A stretch of DNA of 64,000 nt, taken from the NCBI RefSeq assembly GCF_032854445.1, contig NC_088305.1, positions 28,484,628 to 28,548,627 of the forward strand, written 5' to 3'. Below are positions 9,743-41,100 of this stretch, piece after piece. The stretch is from Liolophura sinensis. Taxonomy: Eukaryota; Mollusca; Polyplacophora; Chitonida; Chitonidae. A program made the translations under genes and the position numbers. Positions within the stretch are counted from its first letter, which is position 1; each line of letters begins with the position of its first letter. Under the pieces are notes generated by a model. It was not told the origin of the DNA. It worked only from the letters and a program-made list of their open reading frames with translations, and did no database searches.

Positions 9743-9874
9743 TCACGCTACATAGCTGTACTCATCCGTGGAATTAGCTGTCCTTTCTAAATATTGTTTG
9801 TCTATCAATGCCTCGATGCACTTCTTTATCATGCTTATACTTGGAGCAAATCTTGCTTTTGATTGGCTAATAAC
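9743..9874 (-). CDS. CUL2: CUL2 coding exon 20, copy A (duplicate of 13992-14123)
   Basis: Terminal exon with CAG acceptor, 43 codons and TGA. It encodes the end of the cullin winged-helix B domain, finishing in the family-typical DEYSYVA. Identical in protein to the other copy; I treat it as an assembly or haplotype duplicate. Confidence 0.95.
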
Positions 9875-10020
9875 CTGGGGAGAGAGAAACATAAACCAAT
9901 GAAAATTAATGAGGTGGAAGATGAAGAGGTTTGATTGGCTAATAACCTGGGGAGAGAGGAACATAAGGCAATGAAAATTAATGAGGTGGAAGTTGAAGTG
10001 GTTTAATTGGTTAACAAATA
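9861..10020 (-). repeat. 72-bp tandem duplication spanning the exon 20 acceptor, copy A
   Basis: Unit 9861-9932 holds the real acceptor and the first 14 exon bases. Unit 9933-10004 repeats the acceptor (first exon base would be 9946) and the exon start. A degenerate third start follows at 10005-10020. The extra 72 bases contain no stop in frame. Confidence 0.93.
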
Positions 10021-38100: not shown

Positions 38101-41100
38101 AGCCTTGCAGCTTTGAGACATAACTTATGATAGCTGATTAAACAATACCTGTAATGACCACAAGAAGTAACATTTTCAGAAATCTATTTTCTTCTAAAAA
38201 TGCAATTTTTGTAAGAAAATTTTAGGGAAAAAAGTTTCCCAATTATGAGAAGGGGGAAAATGGAGAGCCCTATGGTGAAATAAGCCTTACAACTTAGAGA
38301 CATGCGATAAGTGATTAAACAATACCTGTAGAGGATATTTTTTCTTGTAGTCTTCTACATTAACAAAGGAGTTGATCACACCATGGATGACTGTCTGATT
38401 AACTGAGGGACCCCAACGGTCACTGAAACGGCAGGGTTATCACATATATAAATAATTCATAGAACGTCATACATGTACAAACTGACAATGGATGTGACAT
38501 CCTGCTTAAGTCTATGTCGTCTCGTCAAAGGCCCCTTGTTAAATAAATGGCAAATGTCAAAAAGATGAGATGTCAACAGTTTTACTCCGTATATAAACCA
38601 GTTTATGTCAAAGGATAGCAAAGCTTGAAATATTTGTCAAAAACTACATTCGCACTGCGCACCCATTTGTTTTAAGTACATGCACCGACTGAAACTTGCG
38701 CGCACAAATTATATGCGTACATGTTATAAAATGAGTAGGACTGTAAAACTGAAGCAGAAGTACATTGTGCTTTGTGTTACATCAACAGCATGTGTTTTAC
38801 AATTTGAGGAGTTCATAAATCAAACAGTCACTCTTCTGCAATGAAGACACGTTAAAACTCCGCGATCGACATTAATATGTATTTTTGAAGAAGGCTGACG
38901 ACACGGCAAGACGTATCTAATCTAGATCTCTAACACACAGATTTTGCTTGCTGTGAACAATGCTACATGTGGCTTGAAGAAATACCAGGTCAGTGATTAT
39001 TTGCTGCACACTACGCTATAATATTTACCTGCAAGTTGTGCACGTCAGCGGTGAAAGTGGGATGCACTATCCATTTTATATATTTCATATGTGCACGTGT
39101 GCATGCGTTATTTCGAGCCTTGGATAAAAAATTTGACAGACTGCAACTTGAAAGAAAGAGCAACTCATAGAGCTCCACGCTGCAGCCAAATATCTGTCAT
39201 ATCTGTCCTCAAAACCTGCAGTTAACAACATTATTTTTCTTCTTCTGTCCTACTAATGTATGCTGTTTTCACAACTTAAGGGCAAAAAAAAATTCAAAGT
39301 TCTTTGATAACAAATGATTTACATAATGCTCAATAAGGTATTAAAACTCAGCCTAATACAGGGAAGTTTAACGCGAATGGTACCCACCTCTTGATCTCTG
39401 CCAATATTAGAGACACCATACTCTGCTTGAGAGGTTCAATCATCAGTCGTTTCCAGATGTCAAGAGCAAGCTGCAAACGGAAAAGCTTTTGTATTAAGTT
39501 CTCCTCAAAAAGGTTATGCTTTGGCCTGTCAGTGCGTACGTTTGTATGAATGCTTGGGTTTCTATGTCAGTCAGTTTTCAGTTTTTTGACGAAAAGGAGT
39601 CATTAGGTGTGAGTCCTCTTGTGTTGAGTTCACACTGCTACATGACACCAGACATGAAGGTTATGCTTTGGCCTGTCAGTGCCTATGTTTGTATGAAATG
39701 CTTGGGTTTCTATGTCAGTCAGTTTTCAGTTTTTTGACGAAAAGGAGTCATTAGGTGTGAGTCCTCTTGTGATGAGTTCACACTGCTACATGACACCAGA
39801 CATGACACCCCACCTTGTCATATTATACTGACACCAGGCCAACCAATCCTGTTTCCTTGTTCTAACCTCTTAGACATGTTGAAGCTGAGTGCCAAATGAG
39901 GAAGGAAAAAACATGACTTTTAAAGTCTTTGGTACTTTATGAGGTGTTCAGGCAGATGCTCTAACCATTAGGTCACCAAAGAGGTCTTTGACCTGACTGG
40001 TGTTTAACTCTGTACTCGAGACGTTTCATCCTATGTTCATGAGAGGAGGCCAGGTTTAAGGCTGAAGAAAGCCTAACTACCATACTCCTTACAGTGCATG
40101 GTCACCCTCTACATCACTGCCATCAATGGCAAACTTTGTGCAGAAATCCTGAACAATGTCGAGGCCACTGGGGTCACAGTGAAGAGGCAGGAAGTGATGT
40201 CAGAAAACACAAACAATCCGTCTCAACCTTTGTCTCTAATAATACTTTATACACATGTATTCTCTTGGTCTAAAGTATGTACAACATGATTTTATCTAAA
40301 ACCTGAACCAATTCTATTGATGAATGCTGATTTAATAGTTCGCAGGAGAACACAAGTGATAAGGCTAAGTCTAAACAAGGCTAAGTCTAAACAAGCCTAA
40401 GTGCCTCTTACAGGCTCTAAAGGTCAAGTTTGTCAATTGGTGGCAGTGATGTAAAGTGAAAGGTAAGAGAGCGACGCATGTGCTGTAAAGAGTACGTCTA
40501 ATCATGAGTGATTCGAGAGTATTTAACGTGTCTTTTTTCGCAATGTGTTTCTCTGGCCATTTCGTACCCTTTACGTCTTCTGTATTCTTTATGTCTACAA
40601 CTACAGATCTTAGACTTCAGTCAAAATTTCAAAACACCTTAAAGTTGTTATTTCTTACATAACCAGGTCAAAATATTGCTTGATATCGTAAATTCTGGGT
40701 AAGTTTTTGTAAAACAAATTTAGCTAATATCACTAATTCATCGCTTTCTATATAATCACAAGATATTATATGCCACAGTAGAGTGGGAGTAAAGAAAATT
40801 ACCCCCACAAAGTACATATAAAATGGTTGAAAGAATGCTAGGGGTTTAATGTCATACTTAACAATTTTTCAGTCATATGACGAGTCATTAGGTGCAAGTA
40901 CATATATTAAGTCTTCTTGTGACTGGGTGAGTCCATGCCGCCAAAAAACTGCCGCCACTGAACTATCATGCTTAAGACACCAGACAAGACATCCCACCCA
41001 GTCACATTATACTGACAGAGATTATACCTCTCAGAGATGAGTGCCAGACGAGGAAGCAAGAAGTACCATTTTTAAAGTCTTTGGTTTGACCCAGGTTTGA

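Follow-up and report, generated by a model that had tools for sequence, protein, structure and literature searches.

Six of the 38 splice junctions of the CUL2 gene in the chiton Liolophura sinensis lie within tandem repeats that run on into the adjacent intron. The gene occupies the minus strand of the window analyzed here, a stretch of 64,000 bp (C11:28484628-28548627) in an assembly of 609,464,459 bases and 632 contigs, which the available text of the genome paper assigns to "Liolophura japonica" (PMC11068029); the species name was later corrected to Liolophura sinensis (PMC12441733). We regard these arrays as very probably splice-junction minisatellites, or mirages, i.e., neutral tandem duplications that are tolerated while one intact junction stays at the exon edge. 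The observed basis for this reading is the copies themselves, their exonic content, and their presence in 7 of the 22 genes examined, together with the lack of a junction hot spot in this sample, breakpoints consistent with random placement, and decoy signals that have not been purged.

Junction copies in CUL2

The gene model rests on cullin-family matches, with Cullin-2 chains as the best PDB matches, above other cullins, for two exons. A spliced alignment with human CUL2, whose sequence was entered by hand as the query, extends from 43871 to 13995 with 444 identical residues in 762 aligned columns. The raw model contained 24 exons; four implausible micro-exons of 2–12 nt were dropped by hand, leaving 19 introns, as many as in a first-pass annotation of the window, and 38 junctions, and introns 1 and 3 were retained despite weak donor sites. 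At the end of exon 8 (35170-35185), a run of six A gives an in-frame stop, and five A would, by eye, keep both the frame and the conserved residues. The neighboring array units carry five A, not six, and the additional base may be a sequencing slip or an allele.

Up to 1,200 bp of the adjacent intron was scanned with a 48-nt probe centered on each junction, at a threshold of 14, and the scores split cleanly: six junctions reached 15–35, and the other 32 remained at 3–11. The junction-spanning sequence recurs in the intron at the donors of exons 6, 8, and 14 and at the acceptors of exons 12, 13, and 20, with units of 26, 37, 38, 39, 72, and 177 bp (Table 1). The first-pass annotation had named six CUL2 junctions as copied into intronic arrays, on both donor and acceptor sides and with unrelated units; the scan recovers exactly the same six and bears out both points. 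The exon 20 array of that annotation is likewise real, but the coordinates given for the exon, near 9743-9874, belong to a second copy across an assembly gap.

Coding sequence clearly lies inside the repeats at four of the six junctions; at exon 12, it recurs together with the intron end. At exons 6 and 13, the few shared exon bases could be chance, though the arrays still reach the splice site. In the intron that follows exon 8, twelve positions score at least 16 against the real junction, and only 3 copies pass a stricter masked search. AG is retained in 4 of 9 aligned copies of the exon 12 acceptor, and GT is retained in 12 aligned copies of the exon 14 donor. Beyond the exon 13 array, further overlapping arrays extend to ~28097. 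A very regular 55-bp array in intron 17 (21585-23123, 28 units, 96% matches) lies off any junction.

Table 1. Coordinates of CUL2, its junction-spanning arrays, and the assembly gap in the window
Feature	Position	Strand	Basis and remarks
CUL2 coding region, ~20 exons, 19 introns (exons 1-5 less certain)	13992..43871	-	PDB matches, spliced alignment; stop codon closes last exon
Exon 6	38326..38422	-	Spliced alignment; intron 6 position and phase common to a CUL4 intron
Exon 6 donor region, two copies ~177 bp apart (real donor 38325)	37972..38330	-	Junction scan; outer limits by eye; 5 exon bases inside repeat
Exon 8	35170..35324	-	Spliced alignment; six-A run near end
26-bp array with exon 8 donor (35169)	34661..35192	-	Unit mostly exon end; 23 exon bases inside repeat
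37-bp array with exon 12 acceptor (28673)	28650..29159	-	23 exon bases inside repeat
39-bp array abutting exon 13 acceptor (27256)	27252..27825	-	4 exon bases inside repeat
38-bp arrays (25689-26197 and 25561-25661) with exon 14 donor (26168)	25561..26197	-	29 exon bases inside repeat
72-bp array, 2.2 copies, with exon 20 acceptor (14124)	14107..14263	-	17 exon bases inside repeat
200-N gap	12580..12779	.	Separates 8536-12579 from 12780-16876, which are 96.7% identical
Exon 20 array in second copy, 2.2 units	9858..10014	-	Other side of gap

Junction copies in other genes

Junction copies are not special to CUL2, as they also occur in control genes. The control sample consisted of 21 conserved genes of this genome, chosen by protein family regardless of arrays (four other cullins, nine CCT/HSP60 genes, and eight ATPase and coat-protein genes), with 495 junctions left after a model-quality filter removed 19 of 514, none of which scored 11 or more. 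With CUL2 included, the sample comprises 22 genes and 533 junctions (263 donors and 270 acceptors). Copies were found at 9 of the 495 control junctions in 6 of the 21 genes, corresponding to 1.8% (95% interval 0.8–3.4%). The four cullins contribute 4/140 (CUL1 2/34, CUL4 2/38, CUL3 0/36, and CUL5 0/32), the CCT/HSP60 genes 4/183, and the ATPase and coat-protein genes 1/172. Units in the controls measure 36–136 bp, and several control hits are purer than those of CUL2, including CUL4 intron 4 (14 copies at ~136 bp) and COPB intron 13 (12 copies at ~79 bp). The threshold of 14 was reached in 1 of 359 trials with shuffled introns; thus, one or two of the 15 hits over the 533 junctions could be chance.

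The first-pass annotation had judged six cases in one gene to be beyond chance, and the CUL2 frequency is indeed far above the genome background (6/38 vs 9/495, Fisher p = 2.8e-4), although CUL2 was chosen because of its six. Neither side of the intron is significantly preferred, with 10/263 donors vs 5/270 acceptors overall (p = 0.20) and 7/244 vs 2/251 in the controls (p = 0.10). The share of intron positions inside tandem duplicates is 14% for the controls and 22% for CUL2, and the array coverage of a gene correlates with its number of junction hits (Spearman 0.45, p = 0.04, n = 22).

CUL2 intron 6 (donor 38325) and CUL4 intron 4 have a common position and phase, and both carry donor-side copies, with units of 177 bp and ~136 bp, respectively. 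The sharing of an array-bearing position is probably a coincidence. Elsewhere in the genome, conserved exons lie inside very long open frames of ~600-860 codons (G000:C10:33941063-33943555, C1:56789306, C1:31343793, and C6:7824721), which are perhaps open arrays beside exons. Among the genes scanned at these loci (AP2B, CCT8, COPB, and CCT4), a junction hit was present in COPB only.

Decoy sites and splicing

The copied splice sites within the introns are potential decoys, and many of them are intact. Decoys were analyzed at the 13 junctions where a masked-core search found copies, CUL2 introns 6 and 12 giving short matches only. GT survives in 70 of 88 donor copies, a share of 0.80 where flank divergence predicts 0.72, and AG survives in 18 of 24 acceptor copies (0.75 against a predicted 0.60), both shares being nominally above prediction. 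Purging of decoy GT/AG, the mark of selection against decoys, was sought at the same 13 junctions and was not seen.

A regulatory role of the arrays appears unlikely. Under such a role, the serial sites would be used, and decoys would give regulated alternative transcripts or tune the level of CUL2 via nonsense-mediated decay. In favor, many decoys match the real site in strength: on a simple position score, 49 of 112 equal or exceed it, including 10/12 at CUL2 exon 14, 10/14 in CUL4 intron 4, and 10/11 in CCT3 intron 12. In nine of ten donor cases, a reading frame continued past the exon runs into a stop within 120 nt, which would fit decay targets, and the retention of GT and AG slightly above prediction points the same way. 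However, early stops do not indicate decoy use, because ordinary donors often meet them too (median 39 nt, n = 240). Multiples of three are not favored among the repeat periods (6 of 15, close to the one-third expected by chance), and some arrays have no decoy that attains the score of the real site (0/3 in CUL2 intron 8, 0/9 in CUL2 intron 11, and none in CUL1 intron 2). Normal splicing is also reported for amphioxus arrays of this kind in the available text of PMC3087553.

Because of the early stops, a decoy in use would in most cases ruin the protein. That the protein is conserved implies, short of proof, that the spliceosome chooses the exon-proximal site, at least for some transcripts. 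Exon definition predicts this choice. For acceptors, a scan for the first AG from an upstream branch point predicts the reverse, as long as the copied branch regions are not weak.

Exon edges and the origin of the arrays

Over the sample, exon edges do not stand out as sites of tandem duplication. The alternative is that splice junctions are mutational hot spots that seed duplication, for example, through co-transcriptional structures or AG/GT microhomology, and the first-pass annotation had proposed that exon edges act in this way. The hot-spot explanation draws on the high frequency in CUL2, both against the controls and against the placement null described below, and on the donor-side coverage of this gene, which stays flat near the junction. 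The sample as a whole leans against a peak at the junction. Array coverage across the 22 genes rises from 3.8% at the junction to 11.8% at +125 and 20% at +300 on the donor side, and from 1.9% to 6.6% and 15.4% at the same distances on the acceptor side. This first profile mixed intron lengths and searched interior positions on both sides. Since its deeper points came from longer introns, the profile was repeated on a fixed set of introns of at least 620 bp, in which coverage increases from 8/125 at 0 to 25/125 at +300 for donors and from 5/130 to 21/130 for acceptors. A one-sided copy search on the fixed set gave the same fall towards the junction (donors 8 to 23 and acceptors 5 to 19).

The junction hits of the controls match a placement null. 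In a linear null, array segments were placed at random and allowed to reach up to 30 bp into the exon. The controls show 9 hits where 7.5 are expected (P = 0.34), and the excess of array-junction overlap suggested as a check of the hot-spot proposal is absent from the 21 control genes and present in CUL2 alone. Between 3% and 89% of the repeat unit is exonic, and these shares are consistent with a uniform distribution (KS p = 0.69, a small sample of n = 15, with repeat periods entered by hand), which argues for breakpoints without anchoring on the splice site. The proposal that exon edges seed duplication is therefore not supported over the sample, and we consider junction hot spots improbable. 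Tandem duplication that strikes blindly and is then filtered by exon constraint gives the simplest account, with CUL2 as an extreme.

Several observations weigh against the neutral account. CUL2 alone shows no fall in donor-side coverage within 150 bp (3/19 at 0 and 2/19 at +150), and its 6 hits exceed the 1.74 expected under the linear null (P = 0.009), whose 30-bp overhang is itself arbitrary. The excess and the flat donor side together mean that the post hoc choice of CUL2 must carry part of the load. A rotation null, in which array patterns are rotated within introns, expects 39 hits in the controls, where 9 were observed, and 8.8 in CUL2, where 6 were observed; it overshoots in both, and we count this mismatch here as well. 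Array coverage does not always translate into hits, as CCT1 (41% coverage), CCT3 (36%), and CUL4 (32%) have higher array coverage than CUL2 yet fewer hits (0/15, 2/24, and 2/38). The equality of 49 of 112 decoys with the real site or better belongs to the same list.

With these points weighed, neutral and tolerated duplication remains our preferred account, and its steps may be pictured as follows. Tandem duplications of ~25-180 bp would arise freely in and around the introns of this chiton. Where a duplicated segment happens to span a junction, one copy would remain at the edge of the exon, with junction intact and coding sequence complete, and the extra copies would fall into the intron, where, like any minisatellite, they may grow through slippage or unequal exchange and drift. 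Copying would have run from the exon into the intron, since the exonic portion encodes residues that are conserved with human CUL2. Such alleles would persist because the spliceosome keeps using the exon-proximal site. Among donors, this is the one farthest upstream, and among acceptors, the one farthest downstream; either choice yields the shortest exon. The suggestion of the first-pass annotation that such arrays are tolerated agrees with the data, in which arrays with unrelated units are evidently tolerated on both sides of the intron.

Age of the introns

At least half of the array-bearing CUL2 introns are older than their arrays. Position and phase are shared by CUL2 intron 6 with CUL4, by intron 8 with CUL1, CUL3, and CUL5 (the phase of CUL2 intron 8 was set by hand from the five-A reading of exon 8), and by intron 19 with CUL3. 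Introns 6, 8, and 19 thus predate the split of the cullins, and the arrays came later. CUL2 introns 11, 12, and 14 have no partner of the same position and phase among the four chiton paralogues. The other 13 CUL2 introns include 6 with a paralogue partner (2, 4, 7, 9, 10, and 13); with 3/6 array introns vs 6/13 others shared, the mirage introns are not unusual.

These ages bear on the possibility that the arrays are left over from intron gain through tandem duplication of AGGT-containing exon pieces, a Rogers-type model proposed for amphioxus globins. The units do hold exon ends with splice signals, and the three introns without a paralogue partner may be gains. The model is at odds with introns 6, 8, and 19, which were in place before the arrays, and with the similar sharing of array and other introns. 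We consider intron gain highly unlikely as the source of the arrays.

Assembly gap and neighboring regions

CUL2 exons 19-20 are present twice, one copy on each side of a gap, in stretches whose ends coincide with its borders. We rejected a genuine local duplication of these exons in favor of a likely haplotype overlap, given that the copies meet at an assembly gap. The second copy is probably the other haplotype rather than a second locus, with two haplotypes joined end to end, and its exon 20 junction was not counted twice in the totals. If the two sides are alleles, the exon 20 array has the same 2.2 units in both, while arrays off the junctions differ across the gap (5.1 vs 3.6 units of 22 bp and 12.8 vs 11.3 units of 27 bp).

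An assembly artefact, in which collapsed or expanded repeats were misplaced beside exons, is a very remote explanation for the junction arrays. It would fit the gap flanked by a probable haplotype duplication, the homopolymer that breaks the frame of exon 8, and a HiFi depth of only 14x, as given in the available part of PMC11068029. Nevertheless, the junction arrays of CUL2 span ~0.16-0.85 kb and the longest control array ~1.9 kb (CUL4 intron 4), compared with an average HiFi read length of 8.3 kb in the same text. The exon 20 array has equal length on both gap sides, and the pattern recurs in six other genes.

A neighboring gene on the plus strand (56500-63850) has TPR-like exon translations and presumably resembles SPAG1. 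Two arrays lie in its region: one has 59-bp units (57666-60204) and includes a donor-like GTAAGTG, and the other has 18-bp units (63358-63599) and includes an acceptor-like TTTTCTCAG. On another contig of the assembly (G000:C99), seven COX1 matches spaced ~15.5 kb apart represent mitochondrial genomes in tandem, besides the single-copy mitochondrial contig C632; the tandem arrangement is probably an assembly product. The gene order of the mitochondrial contig follows the ancestral, chiton-like type of molluscs. It speaks against amphioxus as the source of the DNA, a candidate raised by the mirage papers; a search for GFP-family genes also gave no match, which is a weak negative because none appeared in the controls either.

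Comparison with known systems

The chiton arrays belong to a type of structure already described elsewhere, here in a further phylum, and are probably neutral. The first-pass annotation knew of no named phenomenon for them, but the "mirages" of amphioxus cover the case (PMC3087553 and PMC3902484, available text). The original description is a 2002 Adh paper, known here through these two articles, and further lancelet cases are given in the PGBD5 paper (PMC3902484, in part). A literature search, mostly of open-access sources, found no mollusc mirage case, which is not proof of absence.

If the frequency of 1.8% per junction, extrapolated from 21 conserved genes, holds genome-wide, many junctions would face near-identical serial competitors, providing a natural test of splice-site choice. 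More speculatively, and with doubt on our part, chitons may have acquired, independently of amphioxus, thousands of junctions with equally strong serial copies, from which the spliceosome reliably takes the copy giving the shortest exon, for donors and acceptors alike. Such a genome would constitute a natural genome-wide experiment on the ranking of identical competing splice sites and would favor exon definition rather than a scan from the branch point to the first AG. The arrays also carry a warning for annotation, as prediction programs may settle on decoy sites or call spurious exons there; a prediction error of that sort is suspected for amphioxus PGBD5 (PMC3902484, available text).

Ordinary intronic minisatellites of similar unit size are known from other lophotrochozoans. 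The abalone TSSK1-like gene has a 27-bp array with copy-number variation in intron 3 (PMC6905558), and earthworm metallothionein has arrays in the first intron (PMC12783039); contact with a junction is not described in the available text of either source. Intron gain by tandem genomic duplication (PMC4974935 and PMC2891723, as far as their available text goes) resembles the chiton case in that the duplication copies splice signals. It differs in that, for at least 3 of the 6 CUL2 cases, the intron is older than the array and no new intron was made. Variable internal tandem repeats at exon-intron boundaries have been described in human segmentally duplicated genes (De Grassi and Ciccarelli 2009, PMC2812944, available text) and share with the chiton arrays the expansion of minisatellites at these boundaries. 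The human repeats vary between recent paralogues and can alter exons or make introns, whereas the chiton exons look unchanged.

The closest parallel is amphioxus. There, too, units of minisatellite size (10-72 and ~150-160 bp in the available text of PMC3087553 and PMC3902484) span the exon-intron boundary on the donor or acceptor side, a likeness that is weak here for exons 6 and 13. Many, but not all, copies keep AG or GT in both systems, as in the 70/88 donor and 18/24 acceptor copies of the chiton. Adh3 data and globin reverse transcription-PCR suggest that the amphioxus arrays leave normal splicing undisturbed (PMC3087553, available text), whereas the chiton evidence comes from the genomic sequence. 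Unlike the amphioxus cases, those described here belong to a mollusc, number six in one gene, and were measured over 533 junctions with a hot-spot test. They extend to a mollusc what we found reported only from amphioxus and, in a related form, from recent human duplicates, and they add a rate and a null expectation.

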